Shown one piece after another: positions 38,726 through 61,865 of a DNA stretch of 64,000 nucleotides. A program made the position numbers and the translations under genes. The DNA is from a virus, in the IMG/VR virus record IMGVR_UViG_3300042691_012617, positions 104,427-168,426 of that record; one strand, written 5' to 3'. Within the stretch, counting starts at the first letter, position 1, and every line of letters starts with the position of its first letter. The notes under the pieces were generated by a model. The model had not been told where the DNA came from. It made no database searches and saw only the letters and a program-made list of their open reading frames with translations.

Positions 38726-39253
38726 TCAGTAACCCAACTTCTTTAGCGCAGCAATTGTCTCTGCCGCACTCTTGTGCTTGATCCCGATGCCACCACGGGC
38801 TTCCCATTCCTTGATGTTCTTTCCCCAATCATCGATGAGGATGTTGGGAACTCCCTTGGTGACAGCGTAGTCCTTCTTCTGATCCCGCAGGAGAACATGG
38901 CTCTTGGCGGGAAGGGGGCGAAGGTTCTTTTCGATCCACTTCATCTTGTCCTGCTTGGATTTTGACTGCCACGATGTCGTGTGAGCGGACAGGATGTTGG
39001 GATCGTGCTTGGAGATGTATGCCCACAACTGCTTGCCGTCCTTCATCCAAGGAAGTTCCGCAAACAGGTGCGGGTGTTCCTTGTCGATGCGAGGCTTGAG
39101 TGGATTGACATACGAGTCAAAGTTCTTGTTGTTCAGGTCTTTGATACCATAAAGGTTGGCGATGCCGCCGATGATGTCCACCAAGACACCGTCCATGTCG
39201 CAGTAGATCTCGCCCTTGACGGCTTCGTTGATGTGGTGGAGGAATGACTTCAT
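38726..39253 (-). CDS. Capsid-targeted HAD-family phosphatase
   Basis: 175 residues from ATG 39253. The leader MKSFLHHINEA is a clear capsid-targeting sequence with I-N-E then A. The enzyme part has IYCDMDGVLVD (D19, D21 nucleophile and acid), ILSAHTTSW for motif II, a Lys in the KGVPNILIDDW region and D-D as motif IV, so it is a small HAD hydrolase close to 5'-nucleotidases. I infer an injected nucleotidase. A CTAAATA late box lies seven bases before the ATG. Confidence 0.82.
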   Translation of the reverse strand: MKSFLHHINEAVKGEIYCDMDGVLVDIIGGIANLYGIKDLNNKNFDSYVNPLKPRIDKEHPHLFAELPWMKDGKQLWAYISKHDPNILSAHTTSWQSKSKQDKMKWIEKNLRPLPAKSHVLLRDQKKDYAVTKGVPNILIDDWGKNIKEWEARGGIGIKHKSAAETIAALKKLGY

Positions 39254-39260
39254 GACCTGA

Positions 39261-39267
39261 TATTTAG
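39261..39267 (-). promoter_or_regulatory. Late promoter, leaderless configuration
   Basis: CTAAATA, seven bases (TCAGGTC) before the ATG at 39253. Confidence 0.6.
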
Positions 39268-39273
39268 TCGAAA

Positions 39274-39346
39274 TGCTCTCGGTGGGGTTCGAACCCACGA
39301 CTCTCAGATTAAAAGTCTGATACTCTACCAACTGAGTTACGAGAGC
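39274..39346 (-). tRNA. tRNA-Lys (anticodon TTT)
   Basis: Acceptor GCTCTCG/CGAGAGC, anticodon arm TCAGA-CTTTTAA-TCTGA, T-arm GTGGG-TTCGAAC-CCCAC. Confidence 0.93.
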
Positions 39347-39349
39347 GTA

Positions 39350-39423
39350 CATCCCCGACAGGATTCGAACCTGTAACCAACGGATTAGAAATCCGTTGCG
39401 CTATCCTATTGCGCCACGGGGAC
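39350..39423 (-). tRNA. tRNA-Arg (anticodon TCT)
   Basis: Acceptor GTCCCCG/CGGGGAT, anticodon arm ACGGA-TTTCTAA-TCCGT, T-arm ACAGG-TTCGAAT-CCTGT. Confidence 0.93.
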
Positions 39424-39431
39424 AGGTTGAC

Positions 39432-39773
39432 TCAGTACTCTCGTTTCCACTTGATCACGGTGCCGATGTTGAAGGAACGCCATGCTTCCTTCTCCAAGTC
39501 CCAAATGGAAATATTGCTTTGGGGCTTGGGCTTCCGCTGCGGAGGGGCAGACGGATCGGTCGGCGGTACAGCGTCAGGATTGGCGGTGTCCACCTTGACG
39601 GATTCCTGCACGGGCAGAAGACTCTGCGCGAGGGTGCATCGCATCGTCCGTTCGGTTCCATCCGTCTTGGTGAAGATCACCGTGCAGATGCCGCCTCGGA
39701 GACCGTCAAGGATCTCACGGCGGTAGGTTTCTTGTGCGGGGGTGAGGGCGATAGGTGCTTGGGTGTTGCTCAT
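39432..39773 (-). CDS. SH3-like small phage protein (DUF2693-type pattern)
   Basis: 113 residues. GGICTVIFTKTDGTERTMRC then T-L-A-Q-S-L-L-P, a Pro-rich linker and ISIWDLEKEAWRSFNIGTVI form the known pattern of a small beta-barrel phage protein that may bind nucleic acid or protein. The -10 box TAAGAT lies seven bases before the ATG, so the early transcript would be leaderless. Confidence 0.75.
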   Translation of the reverse strand: MSNTQAPIALTPAQETYRREILDGLRGGICTVIFTKTDGTERTMRCTLAQSLLPVQESVKVDTANPDAVPPTDPSAPPQRKPKPQSNISIWDLEKEAWRSFNIGTVIKWKREY

Positions 39774-39780
39774 ATCGAAA

Positions 39781-39808
39781 ATCTTACCACATTACTCAGA
39801 CTTGTCAA
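39781..39808 (-). promoter_or_regulatory. Sigma70-like promoter, leaderless
   Basis: TTGACA (39803-39808), 16-base spacer, TAAGAT (39781-39786); ATG seven bases later. Confidence 0.7.
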
Positions 39809-40310: not shown

Positions 40311-40316
40311 TCCCAA

Positions 40317-40345
40317 ATACTACCTCATGTTAGATGACTTGTCAA
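40317..40345 (-). promoter_or_regulatory. Sigma70-like promoter, leaderless
   Basis: TTGACA (40340-40345), 17-base spacer, TAGTAT (40317-40322); ATG six bases later at 40310. Confidence 0.7.
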
Positions 40346-41403
40346 CCCCGAACGCCCAAAGCCTTCAAAGTTGTTGGGTGAACTTGCGTCCCGCCGCCCG
40401 ATGCAATCGCAGAAAGGGCAGCGGTCTGCGCCTTTTCAGGAGTAATGTCGGGAGTGGGAGCATACTTCTTAATGTAGTCCATAATAGCAACCAAAGACTC
40501 GCGGTTGATCTCGCGGCTTCCTGCCTTCTTGACACGGAAGTACTTGAAGTCCATGATTGCAACGCCTTTGAGATCGTGATTCAAGGCAATCGTCTTACCA
40601 CGGTTTGTGCCCGACTGATAAGTGTACTCACCGCCCTTCTTGATTTCAATGGTGTTCGCCTTGCCGCCGAGAATGACAGCGATATCGCCATTGATACCGA
40701 GAGAAGGATAGGTGCGGAACATGATGTCCTGCATGGTTCCTGCTGCACCACGATGTGTCTTAAAGAGAATGTCGGTGGGCACAACGCGACCACGGGTGAG
40801 GTTCTGCTGAAGGGCGATCTGATAGTCCGTGAGAATCCATACGATATGGATGTTCTCAGGCTGATAGCCACCCTGCTTGAGGAACTGGAGGACACCCTGC
40901 TCCCCGCCCATTTCTCCGACAAGCGCACCCATGTCCTTTAGAGTCATGTCGAACATGACATTCGGAAGTTGTGACCGAGTCTTATCCGCAAAGAATGTCA
41001 TAAGTTGCTTCTGATCCAAACCAAGACCCTTGACCGCCATGTGCAATTTGCCTGTGTCGTTCGGATCCTTGAGATCAAGTGTACGAAGCAGAGGGATGAC
41101 ATCCTTGATCGACTGTGCCTTTGGAAGATCCATCTTGGCGGATGCAATCGCATCGCGCATCTTGAGGAGCGCGTCCTTGATGTCATCGGGATTGAAGATC
41201 TTGAACTTATCTCCCTGCATGAGATTCATTGCAGCGAACGACTTGCCCGATCCTGCTCCACCCGCAAGGATGACTGCATTGCCATAGTTGCCGCCCTTGC
41301 CAAGGATCAGCAACTTCTCCTCTAGGTACTTCTGAATCTCTTCGTAGAGGGGGGCGTTCTCTTCCTGAATGTGTTCGTCGCGCAGTTGGAAAAAGGTCTT
41401 CAT
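40342..41403 (-). CDS. Capsid-targeted zeta-toxin-like P-loop kinase
   Basis: 353 residues. The leader MKTFFQLRDEHIQE has an I-Q-E site. Walker A AVILAGGAGSGKSFAAMNLM is at 43-62, and D-D-I-K and VMFDMTLKDM follow as in zeta-toxin or AAA_33 kinases. HIVWILTDYQIALQQNLTRG contains the Arg-rich lid region. Zeta kinases phosphorylate UDP-GlcNAc or other substrates. I infer an injected kinase. A late box lies nine bases before the ATG with AGGAAA between. Confidence 0.78.
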   Translation of the reverse strand: MKTFFQLRDEHIQEENAPLYEEIQKYLEEKLLILGKGGNYGNAVILAGGAGSGKSFAAMNLMQGDKFKIFNPDDIKDALLKMRDAIASAKMDLPKAQSIKDVIPLLRTLDLKDPNDTGKLHMAVKGLGLDQKQLMTFFADKTRSQLPNVMFDMTLKDMGALVGEMGGEQGVLQFLKQGGYQPENIHIVWILTDYQIALQQNLTRGRVVPTDILFKTHRGAAGTMQDIMFRTYPSLGINGDIAVILGGKANTIEIKKGGEYTYQSGTNRGKTIALNHDLKGVAIMDFKYFRVKKAGSREINRESLVAIMDYIKKYAPTPDITPEKAQTAALSAIASGGGTQVHPTTLKALGVRG

Positions 41404-41412
41404 GGCATTTCC

Positions 41413-41419
41413 TATTTAT
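41413..41419 (-). promoter_or_regulatory. Late promoter (ATAAATA)
   Basis: ATAAATA, nine bases before the ATG at 41403. Confidence 0.55.
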
Positions 41420-41598
41420 GGTCTCGTACTAATGGTTGTCTTCTGTGCCGAGTGGGGTGCCATCACCGTATTGTTCGGGATCGCATTGCTCTTGGGCTTC
41501 CCGCCCTTCTTCAAGGACTTCTGTTGCATGATGTAATCGTCCATTCCCTTGCGGAACTGAAACCAATCCTTGCCGCGTTGAATGATGTCTTCTTTCAT
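41416..41598 (-). CDS. Small basic hypothetical protein
   Basis: 60 residues. It begins with an ATGA overlap to the upstream stop, which supports real translation. The N-terminal 30 residues are helical (DWFQFRKGMDDYIMQQKS) and the rest is basic and disordered. Function unknown. Confidence 0.6.
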   Translation of the reverse strand: MKEDIIQRGKDWFQFRKGMDDYIMQQKSLKKGGKPKSNAIPNNTVMAPHSAQKTTISTRP

Positions 41599-42524
41599 AC
41601 GGGCAACTTTGGATCAGGACTCATGAAATTGTTCTTCTTCATGGCGGTCATCATCACCATCTTCTTCATCTTGCCATCCCAATCAAGAGTGAACGGCATG
41701 TTGAGACTCTTACTCACATCAAGAATGATCGCCTTCCAATCGACGGGGTGATCCTTGATCTTCTGTGCATGCTTCTCATATGTCTTGCGGAAGGCATCCT
41801 GAATCTCAGGAATCGTGACCGTGCCACCATAGCCACGACTGCCGTTGATGCGTTCCCAAAAGTGTCGGGTGAAGGCGATGTCCAACTTTGCCGATGCGAA
41901 CATGGCATCAAGGACAGACTCAAGTCGCTTCAGGTCATTCCATGCCACGGGCGTGTGCGCCTGCGGCTGCACATACGAGTGCCCCCGCGCATACCCGTGA
42001 CCCGTGGTCGGGCGACCCGTGACGATGCCTTCGCTGACATCCTCTGTGAAGAACGACATGAGTTTGGGGGAGACGCGAACCTTGCGCTTCCCGATCTTGC
42101 GGGTGCTGCTGATGAAGGTGGTCTCTTCCAATTTCTCGTCCAAGTCCCACGGACCATAGTGTCCCGTGCTTCTCAACTTGCGAGTCATCTCAATGTAGGT
42201 GTATGTCTTGTATGCACCCTTCTCGTTCGGTTTGATCTTTCCGATTGCGTAGTAGACACGCTTGTCAATTCGGATGTCATTGCCATTCGATTGATCGATC
42301 ACCATGTCACCGTCCTCCACCCATGCGTGGGGAAATCGTAGCCCTGCCACAGATCCCTGCCCATACACCAAGGCATGGACGAGGACGGGCTTGCCTGAGG
42401 TGGACTTGATCGGTTTGCCGAAGAAGGCTGAGTTGAAGCGCATCATGAGATTTACTGCGGCTGTCATACAGTCGCCATCTCCATCGTGTCGCTCCGTTAG
42501 ATATTGATTGAAAGACTTGGTCAT
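41595..42524 (-). CDS. Capsid-targeted cysteine-protease-like protein
   Basis: 309 residues. The leader MTKSFNQYLTE has the L-T-E site, then R. The next 70 residues carry GDGDCMTAAVNLMMRFNS (C19), GLRFPHAWVEDGD (H66) and MVIDQSNGNDI (D77), the C-H-D order of papain-like or transglutaminase-like enzymes. The second half has FTEDVSEGIVTGRP followed by a GC-tract-encoded insert and a helical domain. GAGGAATAG precedes the ATG. Protease activity is inferred from spacing only. Confidence 0.7.
   Translation of the reverse strand: MTKSFNQYLTERHDGDGDCMTAAVNLMMRFNSAFFGKPIKSTSGKPVLVHALVYGQGSVAGLRFPHAWVEDGDMVIDQSNGNDIRIDKRVYYAIGKIKPNEKGAYKTYTYIEMTRKLRSTGHYGPWDLDEKLEETTFISSTRKIGKRKVRVSPKLMSFFTEDVSEGIVTGRPTTGHGYARGHSYVQPQAHTPVAWNDLKRLESVLDAMFASAKLDIAFTRHFWERINGSRGYGGTVTIPEIQDAFRKTYEKHAQKIKDHPVDWKAIILDVSKSLNMPFTLDWDGKMKKMVMMTAMKKNNFMSPDPKLPV
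41949..42014. repeat. GC-rich tract (copy 5)
   Basis: CCACGGGCGTGTGCGCCTGC and following GTGCCCCCGCGCATACCCGTG, encoding a Gly/His/Ala/Arg insert in the cysteine-protease-like gene. It shares CACGGGCGYGTG with copy 1. Confidence 0.5.
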
Positions 42525-42823
42525 CTATTCCTCGACTGCCAATCAGGAGTGATTGGAATACTCTTATCGCTCACGGCTCTCTTGCTCTGCGCTCCTGCCG
42601 CCTTGAGCCATTGCAGGACATGTGTTCTTCGCGTGGTCGCTTCGACTGCATTGGTGACTTCCCAAGGCCCCATTTGATCCTTGTCATCTGCCCAAGTTTC
42701 AACATCGAAATCTGTGGGAACTTGGTCAACTGCAAAGTTTGCACCGTCATAGCCTACTGCCCTTGTGTAGACCATGTTGGCGGTGCTATTGCTCTCATGG
42801 ATGTACTGCTTGAAGGACTTCAT
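42521..42823 (-). CDS. Small capsid-targeted protein
   Basis: 100 residues starting MKSFKQYIHES, a strong capsid-targeting leader (I-H-E then S). The mature part (YTRAVGYDGANFAVDQVPTD then VETWADDKDQMGPWEVTN) is acidic, with a C-terminal RRTHVLQWLKAAG helix. No enzyme motif. A CTAAATA box lies six bases before the ATG. Confidence 0.75.
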   Translation of the reverse strand: MKSFKQYIHESNSTANMVYTRAVGYDGANFAVDQVPTDFDVETWADDKDQMGPWEVTNAVEATTRRTHVLQWLKAAGAQSKRAVSDKSIPITPDWQSRNR

Positions 42824-42829
42824 GTCCTT

Positions 42830-42836
42830 TATTTAG
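42830..42836 (-). promoter_or_regulatory. Late promoter, close to start
   Basis: CTAAATA, six bases (AAGGAC) before the ATG at 42823. Confidence 0.6.
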
Positions 42837-42837
42837 C

Positions 42838-42870
42838 CGTAAAAGAAAGAGGGAGACCCGAAGGTCTCCC
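42838..42870 (-). terminator. Rho-independent terminator with UUCG loop
   Basis: GGGAGACC-TTCG-GGTCTCCC followed on the minus strand by TCTTTCTTTT. It ends transcription from the small membrane protein gene at 42901-43059. Confidence 0.88.
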
Positions 42871-44060: not shown

Positions 44061-47000
44061 TTAGGTCAGAACTCTGTCCTTGATCAATGCTTCGATGGTG
44101 GTCGCATCGACATTTCTGACAGCCGTTCTGTACCCGATGGCTTGGTGAACGAGATCCACTTTGCCCTTCGCGTTGGTGGCTACCTTATAGTTCTCACCCT
44201 TCACCACGCTGCCGCTCATCATACTCTTGCTCTGAAGCGCACGGAGTCTTTGACCGACATAGACCATCTTCGATCCTTGTACCGCGACACGATCCTGCTC
44301 TTCGATCACTTCACCATCGATCTCTGTGATCTCAGATACGGTTCCCTTATCTACTAGTTTCTTCCAAATCTCCCATGCCTTCCCCTGCTGCGTTTTGGCT
44401 CTTGTGTACATGCTCTTCAAGTTTTTATAGGATGGAACTGCTCCTTCAAACGGAGGAACCGCTCCTGTTGCCTTGTACCAAGTCCTCAGATCATTCTCAC
44501 TTGGAACACCCTTCGCCTCTGTGACATCGATTTCTACACTCTCTGCCTTCACATACTTGACATGGTTGCGGATCGCCCACTTCTCCATCACGGGCTTGCC
44601 GTCCGCACCTTCATCAACGGCGATGTAGCAGACGGTTCCCTTGACATTGGCTGATCTCCATTGCTCCTTGCGGTCCCCACCATAGGAGACGCAGACTTCG
44701 TGCGGGAGACCATGGCTCTTGCCCCATGAGTCGGTTGAGTTGCGGTACTCAAACCGCTTCTTATAAGTTGCCTCCGTGAAGGCACCGACGATTCCCTTCG
44801 TGTCCAAGGGAGCGTATGCTTCTGTGAATGATTCGAACACAGCCTTGATCTTAGAGTTGTTGCGATCCTCAGGCTTGAGGAATTCACGAACTCCCTTAAG
44901 AACATGTGCAACCATGTTCTTCGGTTCTCCACGCAGGAAGTCGGTTAGCCCGTCGATCATTTCCCACACAGGGCCTGAGTCACCGTTCGGAACTTTCATA
45001 GTTCCATTGAGACCACCCTTCTTATATGCCTTCTCTAGGTCATCGATCAAACCATCGGCATCCGTCTTGGTCAGGGAGTCTGTTCCCTTCCACCACACCT
45101 CGCTGATGTCGAATGATTCGACCATCGACATGCCGTGCTTGTCCATCCACATGGCGACAGCCTTGAGCAACTGACGAGGAGCGAAACGCATTTCCTTGTC
45201 ACCGACGAAGCGTGTCGTGCTGTCGGGGAAGGCAGTCAGAACCAACTTTGGATTACCCTGCTGCTTCGTGTTGAAGAAGACCTTATGTGGTGCAATCGAT
45301 GTGCGGGTGTTCTTCTTGGCGGGTTCTTCGATGAAGCCTACCTCGCCCTTGTTTTGAACGCTGATGAGCCAACCCTTGAGACTGCCCTCCACGAACGAAG
45401 TGAAGCGATACTTGCCGATGACCTGTTGGGCTTCGGTCAGTTCCTCGCCGTCCTCTTCGACGCTCTCGCCCCAACTCTTGTTGACGAAGGCAGCGGCTTC
45501 TCTCTCGCTATTCATATCCTTGACCCACTTGCCGCTCATCGTATAGATTCCGATGATTCTCTTGGAGTCACGCTTGCCAGGACCCGTGAGATATTTTACC
45601 TTTGCCTCTTCGATATCTACTTCTTCCTTCTGCACCTTCTGCTTGGGAACGAGTACGCTTGCAGGCTCACCGACATCGACCACATAGCCACCGCCATGCT
45701 GCCGTGCCTTGTCCGTGCCGCCGTCATCGTAACGGACGATCTTGCCGCTGACCATCTTGCCCTTATGCGGAACCTTGACCTTGTCGCCCGCCTTGAACTG
45801 TTCAGCGACTTCGACTTCTTCCTTGATGGCGACCACGGTGACCTCGCCGCCCGACCAACTTCCCTTGGAGCCGACCTTGGCTTCAGGCTTCTTGGTGAGT
45901 CCCTTGGTGAGAGAAGCGAAGTCGCTAGGAGCATACACCTTGATCGACATGCTCTCGGGACTCTTCTCCTTGGTGACAACCAACACGCTGCCCGTGGGCT
46001 TGCCCTCAAGAGACTTCTTGGCAGCACGAAGAGAACTGACCATGGAGGATCCGCCGATAGGATCGTCCTTGACCATCTTCTCGGCACCCGCCATCATGCG
46101 GACACCTTCTTCAACATTTTCAACTTCTTCCTTCACTCCTGCGTTTCTCTTCGCAGCGGCGATGGCTTCGTCCCTAGTGGCATATCTGCCGATCACCGTT
46201 CCCTTGCGACCATCGGGGAAGCGGACACTACCTTGGCTGTAACTTAGTTGGTACAACACGAACTTGCCGCTATCTCGGTCGAGGCGAAACCCATAGGTGC
46301 CGATGTTCAAGTTCTCCTCGTTGACCTCGACCTCTTCCTTAGTTCCAAGATATTTGACTTCGTTCTTGTGCTTGGCGATGTCATATCTCGGATTGCTACC
46401 GACATTCACCATCAGAGCGTCTGAGCCAACCTTGACCACGACTCCACGACGAGGCTTGCCGTTGACCATGGTCTGCACGGCATCACCAACACGGAACTGA
46501 TGTGTATCGGTTGCCTCTGCAACCTCGACGCTCTCACCGTGGAATGTGTTGAACATCATCTCTAGTGCAGCGATGTCCGACTCCCGTGACTTGTCGCCCA
46601 TGGCAGGAGCGACCTTGTTCTTGTCTAGGAGTTGCTTGAGTTCCTTGCGAACGGGATCGGTCTTGGACAATCCCTTCATCTCTGCTGCCTTGAGTTTGGC
46701 ACCGTACTTGCGACTGATCTCCGCAACCACAGCCTTGGGCAGACCTTCGACCCAATCCTCCATGGCTGCTTTGACTGCGCCCTCTGTGATGTACTCTTCG
46801 TGAAGCGATTCAAGCATGAGGAACAGATGCGACTCTTTGTCCAAGCCCTCTGTCTTGAGCATGCTGAAGTCAACGGTGACGATGGCATTGGTTCCCGCAG
46901 GAGCCTTGACCTTGTCGAACGATGTGTTGATCGACGCGGGTGAACCCGTGGCTTGACGCTTGGTCAGACCGTTGAAGGTGATGATGAAGTCCCGTGCCTT

Positions 47001-47288: not shown

Positions 47289-47295
47289 GTATTTA
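47289..47295 (-). promoter_or_regulatory. Late promoter (CTAAATA)
   Basis: CTAAATA, 24 bases before the ATG at 47264 with CAGGAG between. Confidence 0.6.
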
Positions 47296-52098: not shown

Positions 52099-53682
52099 TC
52101 ACAGGGGGCGAACGCCTAGCCATGTGATGTTACGGGACGGGTCTCCCGCAGACTGCTTGCCGCTGTCGAAGACCATGCCTCCGCTGTTCGCGCTTGCCTG
52201 ACTGACCGTGAAGACCGCCTTCCCGCTGCGAACGAACTCCATGTTGTTCAGGGTGACTTGCCATGAGATGGAAGGACGGAAGTCCGAAGTGTCATGGTTC
52301 AATCCATAAGTGATGGCATCACAGAATATGTCGGATATGTACTTGCAGAAGTCCTTCCATTGGAAGGGCTGAATGTACTTGGCAGCATTCTGATTCAGGG
52401 GTGCCCGAACGCCGATGCCCGTCAACGGAATGCCATTGCTGTTCTGCACGAACTTCTGTACGAGATGTACATCGCGCTCAAGATCCTTCATCTCCTGCGC
52501 GGTAAGTTTGCCCTGACGCTTGCCATGCAACTTGCAGATGTCGTTCCAAAACTTCACGGGATCTTGGATCTTGAGTTTCATGACTTCCTTGATCATGAAC
52601 GGGTAGATCGTCTGTGCGCCACGGCTAGATGTCTTAAAGTAGGGAAGCATCGCAACCAAGAACTTGTTGCTGAGTACCTGTAGGTTCGTGAGGTTCTTTC
52701 CCATGGAGTGCAACTTGGGAAGGATGCTTGATCGCGCTCCCTTGTTGCTGCCGCTAGACATTGCCTTCGAAGACACCTTGAGGTTACCGATCTCGCCTGT
52801 CTTCAGCGTACCTCTGAGATATGAGTCATAGGATGTATTCGTGTTGTCGGTTGGCACCGCGAAGAATGTCATCGTGCTGAAGTTCGGGAAGTTGCCGATG
52901 CTCTTGCCGCCCCAAATAAGAAACGGATATGACAACTCCGATATGAGATAGATGCCAAACTTCGCCTTGTCCTGTGGTGCCATGATCTCGCCAACCTCAG
53001 ACCAATCGAACTGTACTGCACCACCGTTGAAGAACTCCTCGGTCGCCTTCAGCACCGCAGGATCCTTGAGGATCGCATAGGAACTGCCCTTCATGTTTGT
53101 GAGGATACGACTCTTCAATTCCTCAAGGCCCTTGAAGATGTAGTGAGGCACATCGTTGTCGCTGATGCGGATCGCCTCTGTCCTATGCCCTTCAAGGAAG
53201 TGAGAAGCAGTCAGGGTCTGCAACTGGCTACCCGCCTTGGTGCGTCTCTTAAATCCCGCGTCCGAGAACTCGGAGTTGTTAATCTTCAGGGGATCGCTGT
53301 CCTTGGGCAAGTGTCGCCCGACGATGATCGTCTTGCTCTTCGAATCCTTCAGCGTGACAAGAATGATTCCCTTGCTCTTGGTCTTCGCTTCATTGGTGTC
53401 GATTGGTCCAATGAACAGATTGACATTGATCAGAGCCTTCAGGAACTCGGGGTTCTCACCCGCAGACAATCTTGCTTTCTCTTTTGAATGCAAGCCACCG
53501 CTAGAAAGATATCGGGGGACGAACACCCAATTCGTCGCAGCCCAAACGCCGCCTTCCTTGTCGCTGAACAGAATCTCTCCCGCAGCAACGCGGTCGGGCT
53601 GAACGCCCTTCGACTCCGCAAGCATGCGCTCGGTTGTCTCTCTGCGTGTCTCCTCGGTGACTCGTTCGATGAATTTCTTCAT
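52099..53682 (-). CDS. Capsid-targeted protein of unknown function, 527 residues
   Basis: Starts MKKFIERVTEE at ATG 53682, after GTGAGGATCCC. The leader has V-T-E then E; a second possible site is L-A-E-S at about 21-24. The body has no motif I know; recurring features are LFIGPIDTNEAK, KSKTIIVGRHLPKD, YLISELSYPFLIWGGKSIG and a helical C-terminal third. The length and position among leader-bearing genes suggest a major internal head component. Confidence 0.72.
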   Translation of the reverse strand: MKKFIERVTEETRRETTERMLAESKGVQPDRVAAGEILFSDKEGGVWAATNWVFVPRYLSSGGLHSKEKARLSAGENPEFLKALINVNLFIGPIDTNEAKTKSKGIILVTLKDSKSKTIIVGRHLPKDSDPLKINNSEFSDAGFKRRTKAGSQLQTLTASHFLEGHRTEAIRISDNDVPHYIFKGLEELKSRILTNMKGSSYAILKDPAVLKATEEFFNGGAVQFDWSEVGEIMAPQDKAKFGIYLISELSYPFLIWGGKSIGNFPNFSTMTFFAVPTDNTNTSYDSYLRGTLKTGEIGNLKVSSKAMSSGSNKGARSSILPKLHSMGKNLTNLQVLSNKFLVAMLPYFKTSSRGAQTIYPFMIKEVMKLKIQDPVKFWNDICKLHGKRQGKLTAQEMKDLERDVHLVQKFVQNSNGIPLTGIGVRAPLNQNAAKYIQPFQWKDFCKYISDIFCDAITYGLNHDTSDFRPSISWQVTLNNMEFVRSGKAVFTVSQASANSGGMVFDSGKQSAGDPSRNITWLGVRPL

Positions 53683-55712: not shown

Positions 55713-55719
55713 GACGATT

Positions 55720-55748
55720 AGTATATCACGCTTTTGCGTAGTTTGCAA
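55720..55748 (-). promoter_or_regulatory. Sigma70-like promoter, leaderless
   Basis: TTGCAA (55743-55748), 17-base spacer, TATACT (55720-55725), ATG seven bases later. Confidence 0.68.
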
Positions 55749-56493
55749 GGGGATCGAATTGCTTTGTTTTGTCGAGCCAAATCATGTTCGCATGCTTCAT
55801 GTTGTCGCGGGGAGAGTATGGGATGGTGATGACTTCTCCTGCGTTACGCTTCGCCATGCCGACATAGATCCGACCCCGCGCATCCTTCGCCGTGGACTTG
55901 GTACCGATAAGGATGCCCTTGGGCTTGTGCTTCGAAACGAATGCCTTGCTGATGTCAAGTACGGTAGCCAACACCATCGCTGCATCCGCTCCACTCATGA
56001 TGCCCAAGTCCTCGTCGCCGCCATTTATGCTGCGGTCATAGTCCCAATACCAACGAGACCTCGGACCTCCACTCATGACGGGGCGTGGGCGAGTTGAATA
56101 CTTCAGGATGGAATCCATTCTCTGAAAGTAGAGTTCATAGACCTTGCCCATGTCGGAGTCGTTGAGGTTCGACTTTTCCTTGAGCGGTGCGTACAGACTG
56201 CTTTGATATGAGAGAGTATGAAACCCGACCTCGTACACCACACCAGGCAACGGAGTCGCATCCTTCTTGTTGTTCAAGAGCGGTCTGTCTTGTTCGTCCT
56301 TGCCCGTGATCTTGAGACCGTTTTCCTCATAGAACTTTTCGATTCCGTTTCCGTCCATGGGACATGGGAGCATCTTGCCACCGCGCACCTTTCCGAAAGC
56401 GAATCGATAGATGTCTAGACCACCACCCGTGGAGAACTCGTTCCATGGGTGAGCCTTGTCAAACAGTTCCGCGAGATATGCGTTGAACTCCAT
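55726..56493 (-). CDS. Capsid-targeted protein of unknown function
   Basis: 255 residues from ATG 56493 (an in-frame ATG also lies at 56499). The leader MEFNAYLAEL fits the capsid-targeting form with L-A-E. Later segments DIYRFAFGKVRGGKMLPCPM, VYEVGFHTLSYQSSLYAPLK and SRWYWDYDRSINGGDEDLGI suggest a globular enzyme, and KPKGILIGTKSTAKDARGRI a C-terminal alpha/beta unit, but I recognise no active site. Its start overlaps the metalloprotease stop. Confidence 0.72.
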   Translation of the reverse strand: MEFNAYLAELFDKAHPWNEFSTGGGLDIYRFAFGKVRGGKMLPCPMDGNGIEKFYEENGLKITGKDEQDRPLLNNKKDATPLPGVVYEVGFHTLSYQSSLYAPLKEKSNLNDSDMGKVYELYFQRMDSILKYSTRPRPVMSGGPRSRWYWDYDRSINGGDEDLGIMSGADAAMVLATVLDISKAFVSKHKPKGILIGTKSTAKDARGRIYVGMAKRNAGEVITIPYSPRDNMKHANMIWLDKTKQFDPLANYAKA

Positions 56494-57899
56494 CACCATT
56501 CCTGCACCTCTTCCTTTGGATCGAACACCTTCTTGCCGATCATGAGTCCGCTGTAGAGAAGGTTGTATGTGTACTTCGACTTCGTGGGATTGCCGCTAGG
56601 CTTGAACTTGTTCTTCGCCTTGTTGAACTCCTGCACGGACGGGATCTTGCCTTGGCTCATCGCGGTCTCATACTCTTTTATGATTCCATCGATGTCCTGA
56701 CGGAGCGACACGACACGATTGACCAACTTTGCCTTCCTCTTCGGATCCTCAATCAGGCTCATGCTTGTGCTGTACGCGCCCCATGTGAGCAACGCCATGA
56801 CAAGAGTTCCCATCTCGTCCATCTTCACCCCGCCAAGCCCGATCTTCTTCAGGTGATCGGGGATCCACGGTTCGGCAAGATTGTCCTTGACCTTTCGCTG
56901 AAGATCAGCGACAACGATCTCTGCGACAGCCTTGCACTTTGCGGTCTTGGTCAGGCTGTTGAAGGAAGCCTTGTCCCGCATCGCATTCAATGCAGCGCGT
57001 TCATTGGTCGCCGCGATCAGGAAGGAAGCGAACGCATCCTCAATCTCTGATGCCGCGCCTTGGAAGTATGCGTTCCATTCCGCATCGCTTGTGTAGTAAG
57101 CCTTGCGGGTCTCAGGTGTGCTGTTCGGATCCCATGATGCTTTGATGCCCTTCTCAATGTTCCCTGGTCTGTCGCTGCTCGACTTGTATCGGATGTCATC
57201 AAGGAAGTGGATGTACTCATGGATGAAGATGTCTCGGAGGAACATCAGTTCCTGCTCAAGTCCCTCAAGCCACTTGTTCATCGGACGAACCATTGCTTGC
57301 TTCGACTTGCCGCTGAACTTCGCCTTCATCGCATCGCGCAGGGCTTGGTGCAGCGGAGTGTCCTTGCCCAACGACAGGTGGCTGAGGTTGTAGAACTCAA
57401 GTGTGGGATTGACCTTGGTCTGCTTGCCTGAGATGTAGACTCCCTTGAAAGACATCGCCCCGCTTCCGCGTGGATAACCGCGAAGCGTGATCAGCATCTT
57501 CACCATGTTGCTGCTCGGTGTCATCTTGTCGAAGTCGCTAGGCTTGATGCTCGGTGGGAGGAAGACCTGTGCGGCATCCCTGATGGTGTATGCAAGAGTC
57601 ATCTGCCCCTGCGTCAGGACTGACATGAGCATCTTCTTGTCATCGAACTGCTTCCGCATCGAATCGGTGAGCGAGTTCGCCAAGTCATTGATGGCGAACT
57701 CATAAGATACGATGTCCTTGGTAGATGGATCTGTTCCCTTGCCACCCGATGTGTGCTTGTTGATGAAGTCATTGACACCTTTGGTCGCCATGACCATGAG
57801 GTTCTTCGTGAACCTGTCGAACGACTTGGCTGCGGCATCGCGCATCGAACGGTCAAGTTCGCGCTCAAGCAGCAGGGCAAGTTCGTGGTATGACTTCAC
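56493..57899 (-). CDS. Capsid-targeted zinc metalloprotease-like protein
   Basis: 468 residues from GTG 57899 (GTGA overlap). The leader MKSYHELALLLER has an L-L-E site. Near residue 227 is FIHEYIHFLDDIRY, an H-E-x-x-H zinc motif followed by an acidic pair, typical of metallopeptidases. EIEDAFASFLIAATNERAAL later may hold the third ligand. I infer a packaged protease that could act on host proteins after injection, or a head-maturation factor. Confidence 0.75.
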   Translation of the reverse strand: MKSYHELALLLERELDRSMRDAAAKSFDRFTKNLMVMATKGVNDFINKHTSGGKGTDPSTKDIVSYEFAINDLANSLTDSMRKQFDDKKMLMSVLTQGQMTLAYTIRDAAQVFLPPSIKPSDFDKMTPSSNMVKMLITLRGYPRGSGAMSFKGVYISGKQTKVNPTLEFYNLSHLSLGKDTPLHQALRDAMKAKFSGKSKQAMVRPMNKWLEGLEQELMFLRDIFIHEYIHFLDDIRYKSSSDRPGNIEKGIKASWDPNSTPETRKAYYTSDAEWNAYFQGAASEIEDAFASFLIAATNERAALNAMRDKASFNSLTKTAKCKAVAEIVVADLQRKVKDNLAEPWIPDHLKKIGLGGVKMDEMGTLVMALLTWGAYSTSMSLIEDPKRKAKLVNRVVSLRQDIDGIIKEYETAMSQGKIPSVQEFNKAKNKFKPSGNPTKSKYTYNLLYSGLMIGKKVFDPKEEVQEW

Positions 57900-58426
57900 A
57901 GTCCCGATCCCTTCGGCAGAAAGATGATGAGTGCCTTGGGTTCGATGCCATGTATGAACGCCATGTCCATGCGGGTGTTCCCTGCGAGGATGCGATCCCG
58001 ATAGCCCAATGCGATCTCCTTCATCTCCTTCTCGGCATGATAGTCGGAAGACTCCGCTGTGGGGCGAACGATGATCGGCATATCCATGGGCTTGCCTGAC
58101 AGCATGGCTTCCTTCATGGCGTTGAGGGTGTCCTCGTTGCGGTACTGCGGGTACGAGCGATAGGTCTTAATGAGGTTCAGCAGTTCCTTCATGTTCCTCG
58201 TATGAGACCTGTTGGCGATGTAGTAGTCGTGCCCCTTGGTGATCGTCCGCACGATGCCTTCCTTCGCCGCCTTGAGGAATGACTCCACGGTGGGGAACAC
58301 ATCCTTGTCCAACTCATGGACGAGGTGCTTCTTGTATTCGATCTCATACTCCTGCTTGAGCATGGCGACCTTGGGGCGAACCCAATTGCCCTTCGCTTCG
58401 GTGATGTGCTGTGAGAAAGACTTCAT
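57896..58426 (-). CDS. Capsid-targeted ParB-like protein
   Basis: 176 residues from ATG 58426. The leader MKSFSQHITEA is among the clearest, with I-T-E then A. The C-terminal MDMPIIVRPTAESSDY then ILAGNTRMDMAFIHGIEPKA follows the ParB/sulfiredoxin domain pattern (G-N-T-R motif). ParB-like enzymes can be nucleases or NTPases. The middle KGHDYYIANRSHTRNMKELL is helical. Its stop overlaps the GTG of the metalloprotease gene. Confidence 0.75.
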   Translation of the reverse strand: MKSFSQHITEAKGNWVRPKVAMLKQEYEIEYKKHLVHELDKDVFPTVESFLKAAKEGIVRTITKGHDYYIANRSHTRNMKELLNLIKTYRSYPQYRNEDTLNAMKEAMLSGKPMDMPIIVRPTAESSDYHAEKEMKEIALGYRDRILAGNTRMDMAFIHGIEPKALIIFLPKGSGL

Positions 58427-58716
58427 CTCTTCTTCCGTCCTTGGCAATGCGCCCGTTGTGAGAATCCCTTCGGGTTGTTGCAGTTGATCGACTTCTTGTA
58501 CTTCGCAGTCCAATCCTCACCGATCTTGTACTTCTTGAGGATGGCGTTGCGCTTGGCTTGCAGTTCCTTCTGCCGTGGAGAACTCGGCATCGTCTTCAGG
58601 ATGAGTATCGTCAGACGGTTCGCCTCCTTGCGATCCTCGGGCGACATGACAGCCCAAGGATCCTTGAAGTCCTTGAAGTCATGCGAACCTTCCATGAATT
58701 GCAGGAACGATTTCAT
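58423..58716 (-). CDS. Small capsid-targeted protein with Cys-containing basic tail
   Basis: 97 residues starting MKSFLQFMEGSH (F-M-E then G). The C-terminal KYKKSINCNNPKGFSQRAHC then Q-G-R-K-K-R is a short conserved module that I recall from several phage and algal-virus proteins. RKEANRLTILILKTMPSSPR is helical. Stop overlaps the next start (ATGA). Confidence 0.75.
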   Translation of the reverse strand: MKSFLQFMEGSHDFKDFKDPWAVMSPEDRKEANRLTILILKTMPSSPRQKELQAKRNAILKKYKIGEDWTAKYKKSINCNNPKGFSQRAHCQGRKKR

Positions 58717-59792
58717 GTGAAGTCCTTCACCAATTGCTTGAACACCTTCGTCTTGGCAAAGGCATCTGCGCCCTTCACACCAAGGCGGCTGATGGCGCGG
58801 TTATAGACATACATCCTTGCATTGTCACCCATGTTTCGTGTTGATGAGTTCAAGACAATGATGTCCTCTATGCTGCTCACCTTTACATAGACCGTGACAG
58901 GGAGCGGGGCATTGCCGACACGGATGACCTCTCGCTCAGGCTTCGCTCCCTTGCCGTATCCCGACACTTGCTTGACCACATCGGGACTCAGGAGAGTGTC
59001 GCTCCTCTTGAGGTTCACTTCGAACACCACGGCGATTGGATTCTCGACACTAGACATGTTGGTGTCGCTGAAGTCCTCTGCGGTGCGCCACTCGTCAGAC
59101 CATGACTGCGCCTCGTAGCGGCTCTTGTAGGTTCCCTTGGCGACAAGCCATTCGTTCTTGCCGATCTTCTTGACCTCTCCCGTGAAGTCATACTTGGAGA
59201 CCACGGCGGTGGTTCTTGACACGCCACGGTACGCCTTGCCGCTCCATGCCGCCCACGGGGCACGGCTCTTGCAAGCAACGATCTGAGCGAAGATGTTCGT
59301 CATCTTCATCTTGCGACCGCCCTGTGATTCGAACCACTCATCGAACGCTTCCTTGATCTCCTGCAACTTGGTGATCCACTTGGCAGACGCATCAGGGATC
59401 TCGCCCTTGATCAAATCGATGAACCTGTTGGGCTTGGGGTCGCTGAGGAGGTCGCAGATGGTGTAGGGATTGGCGAGTACCTTCTTCTCGTCGGCTTCCG
59501 CCTTGCGGTAGATCGCATCGGTCTTCAACTCCCGTTTGATCTCCTTGCCTATGTCCTTGAGGTGCGGGATGACCACCTTGAAGTTGGAGTTCTGATAGGA
59601 GGGAGAAGTGTAGTCGTTCAACGACAGCATCTTGATCCTGTGCTTCAGGTTCTTGATCGTCTGCTTGGAAAGATTGGGTGTCTTGATAGCCTTCTTCAGG
59701 GCTTCGATGGCATCCTTGCGAAGACGCTCTGCCTCAATGGCAGCGGGCTTCGGGCCCTTGGCTTCGGTGATGTGGGCAAGGAAGGATTGCAT
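58713..59792 (-). CDS. Capsid-targeted ADP-ribosyltransferase-like protein (Alt-like role)
   Basis: 359 residues. The leader MQSFLAHITEA is strong. The C-terminal half carries the R-S-E order of ADP-ribosyltransferases: AYRGVSR (R189), AQSWSDEW (S230-W-S232) and KPEREVIRV (E286-x-E288). T4 Alt is likewise packaged, injected and ADP-ribosylates host RNA polymerase. The N-terminal half is helical and Lys-rich. I infer an Alt-type early effector. The late CTAAATA box lies five bases before the ATG. Confidence 0.78.
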   Translation of the reverse strand: MQSFLAHITEAKGPKPAAIEAERLRKDAIEALKKAIKTPNLSKQTIKNLKHRIKMLSLNDYTSPSYQNSNFKVVIPHLKDIGKEIKRELKTDAIYRKAEADEKKVLANPYTICDLLSDPKPNRFIDLIKGEIPDASAKWITKLQEIKEAFDEWFESQGGRKMKMTNIFAQIVACKSRAPWAAWSGKAYRGVSRTTAVVSKYDFTGEVKKIGKNEWLVAKGTYKSRYEAQSWSDEWRTAEDFSDTNMSSVENPIAVVFEVNLKRSDTLLSPDVVKQVSGYGKGAKPEREVIRVGNAPLPVTVYVKVSSIEDIIVLNSSTRNMGDNARMYVYNRAISRLGVKGADAFAKTKVFKQLVKDFT

Positions 59793-59797
59793 CCCGA

Positions 59798-59804
59798 TAT
59801 TTAG
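59798..59804 (-). promoter_or_regulatory. Late promoter, leaderless configuration
   Basis: CTAAATA, five bases (TCGGG) before the ATG at 59792. Confidence 0.62.
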
Positions 59805-59811
59805 GATATGA

Positions 59812-60252
59812 TCACTTCATGACTTCGCCCGTGACGGGTTCGAACCGCCCACGCATCTTCTCAATGGCTTCGGGGGGAACGCCATGGATCGAACCATAGT
59901 TGCCCGTCATGCGGATCACCCGCACCGTCCAACCCAACTCTTTGGCGAGTTCGATGTACGGCTGCATCTCCCACTTCATGGTGAATGTATTGGAGACCGC
60001 GACTGCCTTGTGCTTGCCACTCGCCATCGCCCTGCGGGTACGGGCAAGGCAGTCACCATGGGCATCCTTCAACTTGGTCGGGTCGAAGTCATACTTGCCG
60101 CCCCTGTAGAAGTACTGGTCGGCTTCGAAGTGCGCCGATGCCTGAACGAGGGTCTTCGCATGGGTTGACTTCCCCGAACCAGGGAGTCCACGGACGAGGT
60201 ACAGAATGTTTCCAATCGATTCGTTCATGATGAAGTTCTTGAAGTCGCGCAT
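59812..60252 (-). CDS. Capsid-targeted P-loop polynucleotide-kinase-like protein
   Basis: 146 residues from ATG 60252. The leader MRDFKNFIMNES has the M-N-E site. YLVRGLPGSGKSTHAKTLVQ is Walker A (22-30), D-Q-Y-F-Y and VSNTFTMKWEMQPYIELAKE follow, ending GVPPEAIEKMRGRFEP; this is the AAA_33 kinase pattern, shared with the kinase half of T4 Pnk. A sigma70-like -10 box overlaps the start codon, and transcripts from it would begin translation at the second ATG (60228), without the leader. Confidence 0.8.
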   Translation of the reverse strand: MRDFKNFIMNESIGNILYLVRGLPGSGKSTHAKTLVQASAHFEADQYFYRGGKYDFDPTKLKDAHGDCLARTRRAMASGKHKAVAVSNTFTMKWEMQPYIELAKELGWTVRVIRMTGNYGSIHGVPPEAIEKMRGRFEPVTGEVMK

Positions 60253-60279
60253 TCTAATCTCCCAATCCGTACTTGTCAA
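60251..60279 (-). promoter_or_regulatory. Sigma70-like promoter overlapping a start codon
   Basis: TTGACA (60274-60279), 17-base spacer, TAGAAT (60251-60256). The ATG at 60252 lies within the -10 region, so this promoter cannot give the long form. Confidence 0.6.
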
Positions 60280-60368
60280 TAGCCCACCATTCGGTCATGT
60301 CCATGGAGGATGCCAATCCATCGATGCTCATCCCCCGTCCCTCCTTCTCACTAGGGACTGCCGCGCCC

Positions 60369-61067
60369 CTAGAGCGAGTTCCGCACCGTCTCCCATCGAT
60401 TCTCATCGACGGCAATTCGCTTCTCCGTATTCGGAGCATTCCCAACCTTCGTCAGTTCGAAAAAACTCGGCGGCTGTCCCTTGAACGACATCAGGATCTC
60501 GTCCATCGCCTTCTTCATGGAGTAGCCGCTCGTTCCTTCGATGGACAGCAACTGACCGCCGTAGACCTTGAGCCATCCCTTGGAGTATGCGACCATTTGG
60601 ACATGGTAGGCGAGATCCATGCTGCCGTTGCTCAGAGCCGAACGAACCGTTTGGACTTCCCTGTCGGTGATCGGAATGTTGAGATTCTTGAAGCGATGCT
60701 CCGCTTCCTTCCGAAGACCCGCATTGAGTTCATCCTCCGTGATGCCAAAGCGAGGAAACTGGTTCACGATCTTCGTGACATGGTAGTAGCCATCGAAAGT
60801 AAACCATTGCAACGAAGGGTGCCACCATCCCGTGAAGATGTCGCTCTTGTTCGCCCATGGGTAGGAAGCACGGGCGGGTGTCGCGGGGATCTGCGGAGTG
60901 GGTACGGGCTTGGAGACGAAGGTGCGACGAACAGGCTTCTTGACAGGTGCTGCCTTGACCTTGGACTTCGCCGCTGCCTTCGCGCTTGATGCCTTGGGCT
61001 TGGCGATCCTTGTCTTGGTCGCTGTCGCTTCCTGAATCGATTGCAATAGATCGAAGTAGGTCTTCAT
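60369..61067 (-). CDS. Capsid-targeted basic protein
   Basis: 232 residues. The leader MKTYFDLLQSIQEA ends in I-Q-E then A. Residues 16-70 are Lys/Ala/Pro-rich (KPKASSAKAAAKSKVKAAPV), like H1 histone tails and T4 internal proteins. A globular part follows (DIFTGWWHPSLQWFTFDGYY, LIS-type helices). It probably binds DNA in the capsid. Function of the globular part unknown. Confidence 0.78.
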   Translation of the reverse strand: MKTYFDLLQSIQEATATKTRIAKPKASSAKAAAKSKVKAAPVKKPVRRTFVSKPVPTPQIPATPARASYPWANKSDIFTGWWHPSLQWFTFDGYYHVTKIVNQFPRFGITEDELNAGLRKEAEHRFKNLNIPITDREVQTVRSALSNGSMDLAYHVQMVAYSKGWLKVYGGQLLSIEGTSGYSMKKAMDEILMSFKGQPPSFFELTKVGNAPNTEKRIAVDENRWETVRNSL

Positions 61068-61076
61068 GCCATCACA

Positions 61077-61865
61077 TCACTTCTGATACTTCTTCAGTTC
61101 TCTGATGACCGTCGAAAGGTCTTTCATGATCTCCATGTTGCCATGCTTCGAAGGACTCATTGTTTTCTTATGGACTGCCTCAAGGCTATAGATCAGACCC
61201 TGAAGGAAGTCACGCTGCTGTGCATGCTTCTGCCTGAGGGAACCCACGATCTGTAGAAGATAGGAATGAACATCGAACTTTCCCACCCATGCGACATTCG
61301 TCGTTGCCTTCTGAATGTTCGTCGCCATGTCATCAAGGTCAGTCCAATACCTTCCGAGATCCGCTGCCTCGCTTACAAGAGTCTCTTCCTTTCTGATGGA
61401 AGGAAACCCTAGAGAAGACAGTAGATCCGAAGCAGCCTTCTTGTTGGCTTCTTCTGCCGCCTTGAGAACTTCATTCTTGTCCAACGAGGCTACCTTGCCC
61501 ACGACACGAAGACCGCTCCCACCTCTTCCGACTGCATAGAGGGTGTATCCCTTGCCATCAATCGCCTTGCGTACTTGGAATGAAGAACCCTTCATCATGA
61601 ACTTCTTGTCGAGCGGAACATCGGACTCGTCCAGTTCAACCTCTTCCTTTTGCCACGGCTGTCCGATGTTCTTGGGGGTGAGGGTGACGAACACCTTGCC
61701 CATCTTGAGACCGCCATGCTCCTTTGCCTTCTTGAGGCATTGCTGCTTGCTGCCACGATAGATGATCTTGTTGTCCACGACGAGGGCATACCCGACCTTG
61801 GTGAGTTCTGCCTCGCTGAGGGTCTTGCGCTGAATGCCGTCCCAATTCTCGTTGAATGACTTCAT
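61077..61865 (-). CDS. Capsid-targeted two- or three-module protein
   Basis: 262 residues from ATG 61865, which has CAGGAG and a late promoter upstream. The leader MKSFNENWDGIQRKTLSEA gives L-S-E then A at 16-19. Further cut-site-like motifs separate modules: VELDE-S near 70 and LVSE-A near 148. Module 1 is small and beta-rich; module 3 (LGRYWTDLDDMATNIQKATT) is helical. I infer processing into small internal proteins. Longer frames upstream are not supported. Confidence 0.75.
   Translation of the reverse strand: MKSFNENWDGIQRKTLSEAELTKVGYALVVDNKIIYRGSKQQCLKKAKEHGGLKMGKVFVTLTPKNIGQPWQKEEVELDESDVPLDKKFMMKGSSFQVRKAIDGKGYTLYAVGRGGSGLRVVGKVASLDKNEVLKAAEEANKKAASDLLSSLGFPSIRKEETLVSEAADLGRYWTDLDDMATNIQKATTNVAWVGKFDVHSYLLQIVGSLRQKHAQQRDFLQGLIYSLEAVHKKTMSPSKHGNMEIMKDLSTVIRELKKYQK

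Follow-up and report, generated by a model that had tools for sequence, protein, structure and literature searches.

Some twenty genes of a T4-like phage begin with a leader resembling the T4 capsid-targeting sequence, marking an unusually large putative set of packaged proteins

Introduction

Bacteriophage T4 packages three small internal proteins, IPI, IPII and IPIII, together with Alt, and all of these are delivered into the newly infected cell and act there (PMC9026906, PMC12373910). The internal proteins begin with a capsid-targeting sequence (CTS, MKTYQEFIAEA), of which residues 4 and 7 are needed for targeting and residues 8 and 10 for cleavage (PMC9026906). Salmonella phage SPN3US also packages and injects a large set of proteins, some of them processed by a T4-type prohead protease, but there cleavage occurs after AxE, the propeptides are mostly long and about 80% of the head proteins are uncut (PMC10052503); a short common leader is not reported in that paper. 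Phage P1, of a different lineage, has the head-associated anti-restriction proteins DarA and Hdf (PMC12810830, PMC9024508). Closer to the phage studied here, cytidylyltransferases were detected by mass spectrometry (MS) in virions of S-CREM2, S-SCSM1 and S-SZBM1 (PMC10665884, PMC9602691, PMC9146016), and these papers propose packaging and, in the text available, name no signal for it.

Here we describe a window of 64 kb, the final part of the 168-kb record of a T4-like phage whose nearest named relatives are Kyanoviridae; a megablast search of its 38–62 kb region against named phages gave no match. Twenty minus-strand genes of the window open with a leader resembling the T4 CTS, and their mature parts are unrelated and mostly enzyme-like (Table 1). 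A sequence-only reading had listed these genes, and all 20 were found on the minus strand, each with a leader of the claimed kind; the tagged set reaches outside the 38,726–61,865 interval assigned to it, extending also to 2160–9014 and 22092–22865.

Results

Form and significance of the leader

The leader follows the consensus M-K-[ST]-[FY]-x3-[ILM]-x-E-[AS], or more loosely M-x-x-[FY]-x3-[ILMV]-x-E, which is the form and spacing of the T4 CTS, and its positions agree with the T4 residues 4, 7, 8 and 10 required for targeting or cleavage. The x4 spacing initially proposed was wrong, and a scan using it literally gave a chance match only. Two lengths exist, one of about 10 residues and one of 13–18 residues in which inserted residues separate the aromatic position from [IL]xE; the strict form is present in six genes and the inserted spacer in about seven. 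Two genes start with GTG (w4210 and w56493), w61077 starts at 61865, and the start of w38726 was moved from 39352 to 39253 because the longer reading frame enters a tRNA-Lys gene.

At the called starts, the strict pattern occurred five times against 0.06 expected from shuffling (none of 2000 shuffles reached five), and the count rises to six with the corrected start of w38726. The looser pattern was seen 12 times against 0.29 expected, and at internal methionines it matched 1 of 893 positions. An ungapped profile trained solely on leaders of other phages placed 13 of the 20 listed genes at ranks 1–13 among the 180 genes ranked (BH <= 0.025), with no structural gene among them; such a search, suggested by the earlier reading for this and related genomes, recovered the tag in both. 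Seven listed genes fell under the profile threshold, and six of them (w2160, w7812, w40342, w56493, w60369 and w44061) are backed by leaders of the same kind on their homologs. The weakest members of the set are w61077, judged on its own sequence, and w22092, which scores well but whose one ortholog, in contig G002, has no leader. Loose regular expressions produced false matches in the comparators, for example regA of S-CREM2, and the case is therefore built on strict matches, the profile and the homologs.

Three other readings of the motif were considered and rejected. An artefact of start choice is contradicted by the shuffles, the internal-methionine control and the outside profile. A recent copy-paste of one leader is rejected because codons differ between genes, with TCA, TCC, TCT and TCG all used for Ser3; the leader DNA is 59% alike, compared with 26% just upstream. 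Finally, the leader is not a tag on every late gene, as structural late genes do not have it.

Table 1. Leader-bearing genes and predicted late promoters of the window
Feature	Coordinates	Strand	Leader	Remarks
w2160, cargo gene	2160..2651	-	MRSFKELRKTINET	conserved family, function not assigned
w3953, cargo gene	3953..4213	-	MKNYKSLKQDITEA	DUF5824, Pfam E 8e-19; profile rank 9
w4210, cargo gene	4210..7815	-	(GTG)MKNFAQHLTEA	1201 aa
w7812, cargo gene	7812..9014	-	MLSFKQMLPLMEQ	DUF6267, Pfam E 3e-94; motifs KxDG / EGxV
w22092, possible cargo gene	22092..22865	-	MAQAFRSFLSEE	polysaccharide deacetylase, Pfam E 5e-14; profile rank 4
w38726, cargo gene	38726..39253	-	MKSFLHHINEA	5'-3' deoxyribonucleotidase (HAD), PHROG 2643 E 4e-24
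w40342, cargo gene	40342..41403	-	MKTFFQLRDEHIQEE	P-loop kinase-like (PHROG 5268)
w41595, cargo gene	41595..42524	-	MTKSFNQYLTER	profile rank 6; N-terminus cysteine-protease-like by eye
w42521, cargo gene	42521..42823	-	MKSFKQYIHES	100 aa; strict CTS match
w44061, cargo gene	44061..47264	-	MMNEFQRRILAEA	1067 aa; no assigned function
w47477, cargo gene	47477..47806	-	MKSYKDYISES	109 aa; strict CTS match; profile rank 5
w52099, cargo gene	52099..53682	-	MKKFIERVTEE	527 aa; no assigned function; profile rank 10
w55726, cargo gene	55726..56499	-	MVMEFNAYLAEL	257 aa; profile rank 13
w56493, cargo gene	56493..57899	-	(GTG)MKSYHELALLLERE	HExxH motif IHEYIH by eye
w57896, cargo gene	57896..58426	-	MKSFSQHITEA	176 aa; strict CTS match; profile rank 1
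w58423, cargo gene	58423..58716	-	MKSFLQFMEGS	97 aa, basic; profile rank 11
w58713, cargo gene	58713..59792	-	MQSFLAHITEA	359 aa; strict CTS match; profile rank 3
w59812, cargo gene	59812..60252	-	MRDFKNFIMNES	P-loop kinase (AAA_33), Pfam E 1e-10; profile rank 12
w60369, cargo gene	60369..61067	-	MKTYFDLLQSIQEA	232 aa
w61077, possible cargo gene	61077..61865	-	MKSFNENWDGIQRKTLSEA	262 aa; own sequence only
w3477, candidate cargo	3477..3914	-	MFHNPFNSKVVADITKFLNE	second leader type
w34630, candidate cargo	34630..35034	-	MKDPFNNPLVNDIRNMLNE	second leader type
Predicted late promoter TAAATA	9034..9039	-		w7812-w4210-w3953 unit
Predicted late promoter TAAATA	22872..22877	-		w22092
Predicted late promoter TAAATA	39261..39266	-		w38726
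Predicted late promoter TAAATA	41413..41418	-		w40342
Predicted late promoter TAAATA	42830..42835	-		w42521-w41595 unit
Predicted late promoter TAAATA	47290..47295	-		w44061
Predicted late promoter TAAATA	59798..59803	-		w58713-w58423-w57896-w56493-w55726 unit
Predicted late promoter TAAATA	61883..61888	-		w61077-w60369-w59812 unit

Conservation of the leader and exchange of the cargo

The leader combines freely with unrelated cargo. In IMG/VR its DNA pattern was found in at least 119 stretches, lay at an ORF start in 86 of 86 matches examined and was joined to 33 unrelated cargo families, while a permuted control gave four matches; between related phages the cargo varies and the leader stays. 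For w2160, the alignment with the homologs of HTVC008M and Melnitz-2 does not start until residue ~36, yet these have leaders of their own (MKSFKDFQNVNEK and MKNFKNHIAEE), and its IMG/VR homologs begin with MKTFRQYIKEA and MKSFKQHIKEA. The leader of w3953 is retained in 14 related contigs, and the leader Glu of w7812 is nearly invariant in 36 homologs, with K replacing the cleavage Glu in two DUF6267 homologs (L128 and L229). Orthologs in G002 carry MKSFNEHIAEA (w41595), MKTFLQHIMET (w42521) and MMNHYQRKILAEA (w44061), and a homolog of w40342 has the canonical MKTFKQHLVEQ. Mature parts of w56493 and w60369 match leader-bearing proteins (MKSFVEYITEA and MKSFEQYISEA in IMG/VR for the former, MKSFNEYITEA of L130 for the latter), and a homolog of w58423, with leader MKSFIQYILEAS, is 66% identical in its mature part across 53 residues. 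Some homologs of w38726 have the leader (MKSFRTYLIEN, MKSFCTYLKED, MKTYNQILYEV) and several do not. Two further genes, w3477 and w34630, have a second type of leader, with 32 N-terminal residues in common (E 3e-4); homologs of the w34630 body (L147 and L168) begin with MKSFVEHMSES.

Predicted functions of the cargo

The enzyme activities originally proposed fared unevenly. The HAD phosphatase (w38726), the kinase (w59812) and the deacetylase (w22092, whose leader is doubtful) were borne out by profile matches. Of the ligase-like proteins, w4210 does contain a RimK-type glutamate ligase, along with a cytidylyltransferase/NMNAT-like domain and a RimB-type peptidase. In w7812 the residues of the ligase-type motifs are invariant or near-invariant across 36 DUF6267 homologs, and a fold search of the PDB reached ligases and capping enzymes at E about 1 only, which is not significant; an alignment of DUF6267 searched against PDB sequences returned nothing credible. 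The structure model of w7812 consists of a disordered leader followed by a folded domain (pLDDT 87). The zinc protease reading is revised for w4210, whose domain groups with RimB-type retropepsin-like aspartic peptidases; w56493 does show an HExxH motif by eye. The putative assignments of w58713 as an ADP-ribosyltransferase and of w41595 as a cysteine protease are read from motifs only. The former protein had no match in Pfam, PDB or NCBIfam and no relatives in a single-protein search, and its single-sequence structure model was too poor for use (pLDDT 39); it weakly resembles a leader-bearing protein whose ART-PolyVal match falls below the cut-off.

Late promoters and head assembly genes

All 20 leader genes belong to units with a predicted late promoter, (C)TAAATA, compared with 38 of the 59 other genes of the window (p = 0.0009), and in several of them the promoter lies 11–15 nt before the ATG. 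Structural late genes have the same promoters without the leader motif. The phage encodes a gp55-family late sigma factor, and the gp22 scaffold, S77 (gp21) protease, gp23 and gp55 families are all encoded outside the window, the protease and the gp22-type core being represented by PHROG 207 and 237. The gp21-type protease on which the sequence-only reading depended is thus present (S77, PF03420, E 1.3e-33), and S77 is likewise encoded in all four near-complete contigs found through the leader.

Leaders on virion proteins of relatives

The virion cytidylyltransferases of S-CREM2, S-SCSM1 and S-SZBM1 are homologs of w4210 and bear the same leader, and so do the SAM hydrolase and the kinase of S-CREM2 virions. 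The MS-detected, leader-bearing proteins include gp154 (MKNFSSFLTEA), gp14 (MKRFDAFLTEE), gp6 (MKDFDSFLEEF), gp136 (MQTFSMFFSED) and gp13 (MKDLHSFLTEQ) of S-CREM2 (PMC10665884), ORF91 of S-SCSM1 (MKSFLQFLKEA; PMC9602691) and S-SZBM1_140 (MRFRQFIIEA; PMC9146016). With a leader profile trained without S-CREM2, the top four S-CREM2 genes all encode MS-detected proteins; the S-CREM2 authors state that MS detection could include carry-over (PMC10665884). Detected proteins gp155, gp156, gp160, gp174 and gp176 of S-CREM2 have no leader, so that other packaging routes also appear to exist. In S-SCSM1 and S-SZBM1, the cytidylyltransferase gene lies near helicase/MazG and primase/nrdA genes. The phage described here tags many more proteins than these three.

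Discussion

It is well supported that the CTS-type leader marks an unusually large packaged set, and in these 20 genes the internal-protein system of T4 recurs in a much expanded form. As in T4, an S77/gp21 protease and a gp22 scaffold accompany late promoters and mature parts that are unrelated to each other, and the leaders have the sequence marks of a CTS, namely a short N-terminal propeptide, an aromatic residue at position 4 and an [IL]xE site, with w22092 and w61077 doubtful. Where T4 packages three small internal proteins and Alt, this phage has about 20 tagged proteins plus two with another leader; several are large enzymes, and the cargo has no recognisable homology to the T4 internal proteins. 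By far the best explanation, and one we hold with considerable confidence, is that the tagged proteins are packaged, cut, injected and active in the next host. Late in infection they would be expressed from (C)TAAATA promoters under gp55 control; their leader, with its aromatic residue at position 4 and [HYF] at position 7, would bind the gp22 core during prohead formation; the S77/gp21-type protease would cut after [ILM]-x-E, leaving the mature proteins free in the head; and these would exit with the DNA and act from the first moment. For this particular, uncultured phage, packaging, cleavage after Glu, injection and action on the host are inferred.

Packaging might concern the close matches only, some 6–13 genes, the long or degenerate leaders being look-alikes. 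The seven genes under the ungapped profile threshold and the leaderless ortholog of w22092 fit such a restriction, which we nevertheless consider unlikely, given the recognisable leaders on homologs of six of these seven genes; moreover, T4 propeptides span 10–19 residues (PMC9026906), and longer forms are therefore expected. It is less likely still that the leader is a core-binding tag on proteins that mostly serve head assembly, as scaffold or space filling. T4 IPIII does influence head assembly (PMC9026906), and small basic cargo such as w58423 would suit that role, but many cargo proteins are enzymes, the cargo differs among related phages under a constant leader, and T4 Ip2 and Ip3 inhibit defence nucleases (PMC12373910). 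As for a shared N-terminus unrelated to capsids, reflecting translation starts, late mRNAs or another cellular target, the short distance from promoter to ATG would allow for an RNA-level constraint on the start region. To this we give hardly any credence: it is the peptide that is conserved, with synonymous codons mixed, the motif is absent from structural late genes that share the promoters, and enzymes detected in virions of relatives bear the leader.

Beyond this phage, the leader is, on balance, likely to be a general and portable code for packaging among aquatic phages of the T4 type, by which any late protein acquiring it would be loaded and injected, some phages thereby delivering about 20 enzymes. 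Were this true, injected effectors could be read directly from metagenomic sequence, and the recurrent enzymes in cyanophage virions would be explained. A leader scan of viral contigs yields dozens more cargo families and so offers an easy sequence-based way to recognise injected effectors. The T4 tag was known from three small proteins and is found here on about 20 unrelated, mostly larger ones, which form a natural catalogue of what may be carried in T4-type heads, with cargo reaching 1,200 residues. Their tasks may tentatively be sought in countering defences early, in repairing RNA or nucleotides and in altering host translation and NAD metabolism. Packaged proteins are the means that a phage has before its own synthesis begins, at the time of attack by restriction and other fast-acting defences, and the tagged set thus offers candidate counter-defence and host-takeover proteins.

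Leader form and statistics

The window (G000:C1:104427-168426) is the terminal 64 kb of a 168,426-base IMG/VR virus record. The major capsid protein encoded there shares 60-64% identity with its counterparts in Methylophilales phage Melnitz, Pelagibacter phages Mosig and HTVC008M, and cyanophages (Kyanoviridae). With 185 genes called by a simple gene caller, we recovered all 20 genes to which the sequence-only reading had ascribed a leader like the T4 capsid-targeting sequence (CTS), each on the minus strand with the short leader at its N-terminus. The x4 spacing it had given was wrong: the correct form is M-x-x-[FY]-x3-[ILM]-x-E, with the x3 spacing of the T4 CTS, MKTYQEFIAEA. For w38726 (genes are named by their end coordinate in the window) the start was corrected, the earlier called one falling inside tRNA-Lys.

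The strict T4 pattern, M-K-[ST]-[FY]-x3-[ILM]-x-E-[AS], occurs at 5 called starts (6 with the corrected w38726) against 0.06 expected from shuffled N-termini, and the looser MK[ST][FY] pattern at 12 starts against 0.29; among 893 internal Met positions the looser pattern fits just one. A leader-profile search of this and related genomes had also been proposed; a ten-column profile trained on T4, Melnitz, Mosig, Syn9, S-CREM2 and S-SCSM1, without this phage, placed 13 listed genes at ranks 1-13 of 180, all with BH <= 0.025, a level reached by none of the others. Eleven genes at called starts (12 counting w38726) exceeded the profile's 99.9% level, compared with 4 in T4, 5 in KVP40, 3 in Melnitz-2, 2 in S-SM2 and 0-1 in HTVC008M, Mosig and DLP6, and strict-pattern counts in four further near-complete contigs were 5, 3, 1 and 1. 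Of the genomes and near-complete contigs compared in this way, a part of the T4-like genomes, none has as large a leader set as this phage. Recent copying of the leaders was rejected, since synonymous codons are mixed among them.

Leaders in homologs and in IMG/VR

Seven listed genes, with longer or looser leaders, fell under the profile threshold, and for six of these homologs support the putative leader. DUF6267 proteins (the w7812 family) carry leaders such as MKKFRQYITES, MKTLKNYIVEQ, MFAFSSYLTEQ and MIKFDQYLKEE before a start conserved as NxHLxHxED, and in an alignment of 36 sequences the column of the leader Glu is one of those that hardly vary; residues 1-18 of the predicted w7812 structure (pLDDT 87) are disordered, as would be expected of a detachable peptide. 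For w2160, alignment with the homologs from HTVC008M and Melnitz-2 begins only at residue 36, yet each of these has a leader of its own. Relatives of w56493, w60369 and w40342 begin MKSFVEYITEA, MKSFNEYITEA and MKTFKQHLVEQ. The sequence ..QR[RK]ILAEAAK of w44061 is kept in the related genome G002, where the w22092 ortholog has no leader; no homolog of w61077 was found. Since the deoxyribonucleotidase family (w38726) has members with and without leaders, the leader is probably an add-on.

Otherwise unrelated, w3477 and w34630 share the N-terminus NPFN..VV.DI...LNE (E 3e-4), tentatively a leader of a second type that likewise ends in [hydrophobic]-x-E. In two compared loci (L147 and L168) the w34630 body follows the canonical leader instead, in the form MKSFVEHMSES.

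A degenerate DNA pattern for MK[ST]F-x-[QE]-[HY]-I-x-E-A matched at least 119 stretches in IMG/VR, versus 4 for a control with the same codons reordered. Among the matches listed (80 loci), 86 of 86 stood at ORF starts, a median of 5 codons from the upstream stop; the mature parts behind them formed at least 33 families, among them RNA-ligase-like, cytidylyltransferase, HAD-like, DUF5824 and DUF6267 proteins, and some matched the mature parts of eight window cargo proteins. All four near-complete contigs found with this pattern encode S77, the gp21-type prohead protease.

Packaging machinery and predicted late promoters

The gp21-type protease expected outside the window is present in our record (S77, E 1.3e-33), together with a gp22-type scaffold (PHROG 237), a head maturation protease (PHROG 207), gp23 and a gp55-type late sigma factor. 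TAAATA occurs only 62 times in 168 kb, both strands counted, and lies at most 60 bases upstream of 40 called genes, capsid and scaffold genes among them. All 20 leader genes belong to units behind this predicted late promoter element (8 have their own); of the 59 other genes in the window, 38 do (p = 0.0009).

At window starts 22865, 35034, 37425, 39253, 41403, 42823 and 59792, TAAATA stands 11-15 nt before ATG; T4 spacing would put the transcription start at or beside the start codon, which suggests that these late mRNAs may be leaderless. The Dps-like gene has its own late promoter and lacks the leader. The phage also encodes a tmRNA (Rfam E 4e-31, tag ANKQTRRYALAA) within its tRNA gene cluster; such a gene is unusual for a phage.

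Features of the window and of compared phages
Feature	Coordinates	Strand	Assignment
w3477	3477-3914	-	NPFN-type N-terminus
w4210	end 4210	-	cytidylyltransferase/NMNAT-like; RimK-family glutamate ligase (above NCBIfam cut-off); RimB-type peptidase
w7812	end 7812	-	DUF6267, ligase-type motifs; fold search without significant match
w22092	end 22092	-	polysaccharide deacetylase
w34630	34630-35034	-	NPFN-type N-terminus
tmRNA	36661-37006	-	tmRNA
Dps-like	37060-37425	-	starvation-inducible family protein (PHROG 858)
w38726	38726-39253	-	deoxyribonucleotidase
w40342	end 40342	-	P-loop protein
w41595	end 41595	-	candidate cysteine protease
w56493	end 56493	-	HExxH motif, by eye
w58713	end 58713	-	candidate ADP-ribosyltransferase
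w59812	end 59812	-	P-loop kinase
S-CREM2 gp12	L116:7704-10313		Cas9-like nuclease
Phage GN1 protein	L115:5857-7278		annotated "structural"

Virion proteins of relatives

Published mass spectrometry of S-CREM2 virions detected a SAM hydrolase, a kinase and a cytidylyltransferase as well as hypothetical proteins, and its authors allow for carry-over in this detection (PMC10665884). Among these proteins, gp6 begins MKDFDSFLEEF, gp14 MKRFDAFLTEE, gp154 MKNFSSFLTEA, gp13 MKDLHSFLTEQ and gp136 MQTFSMFFSED. When the profile was retrained without S-CREM2 and its 154 genes were ranked, gp154, gp14, gp136 and gp6 led, 4 of 4 being virion-detected versus 51 of 154 overall (chance about 1%). S-SCSM1 ORF91 (MKSFLQFLKEA) and S-SZBM1_140 (MRFRQFIIEA) are also virion proteins; both are cytidylyltransferases, the family of the w4210 N-terminal part. 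The available parts of the papers on these three phages name no packaging signal. Some virion-detected proteins at the same loci have no leader, and the leader is therefore not the sole route into the particle.

The virion-detected S-CREM2 gp12 has a leader-like RFASFMAEA ~17 residues inside its annotated start, and its true start may be later. A protein that carries a structural annotation in Yersinia phages GN1 and YerA41 shares 28% identity with the RimK/RimB region of w4210.

Cargo and known systems

Of the enzyme identities proposed earlier, those of the HAD phosphatase (as a deoxyribonucleotidase), kinase, ligase and deacetylase are supported; the ADP-ribosyltransferase and cysteine protease are candidates resting on motifs. 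In the T4 CTS, residues 4 and 7 serve targeting and 8 and 10 cutting, and such leaders were already suggested to let T4-like phages package varied proteins (PMC9026906). In the 'capsid targeting' literature, with subscription papers thinly covered, no title or abstract carries the CTS over to Kyanoviridae or presents long lists of cargo. Phage SPN3US also ejects a large set of proteins, by a different signal (PMC10052503). Packaging of the leader-tagged proteins is well supported, and we infer the cutting of the leaders, injection and the function of the cargo. Set beside the published T4 CTS system, the leader set of this phage is a much expanded form of it.
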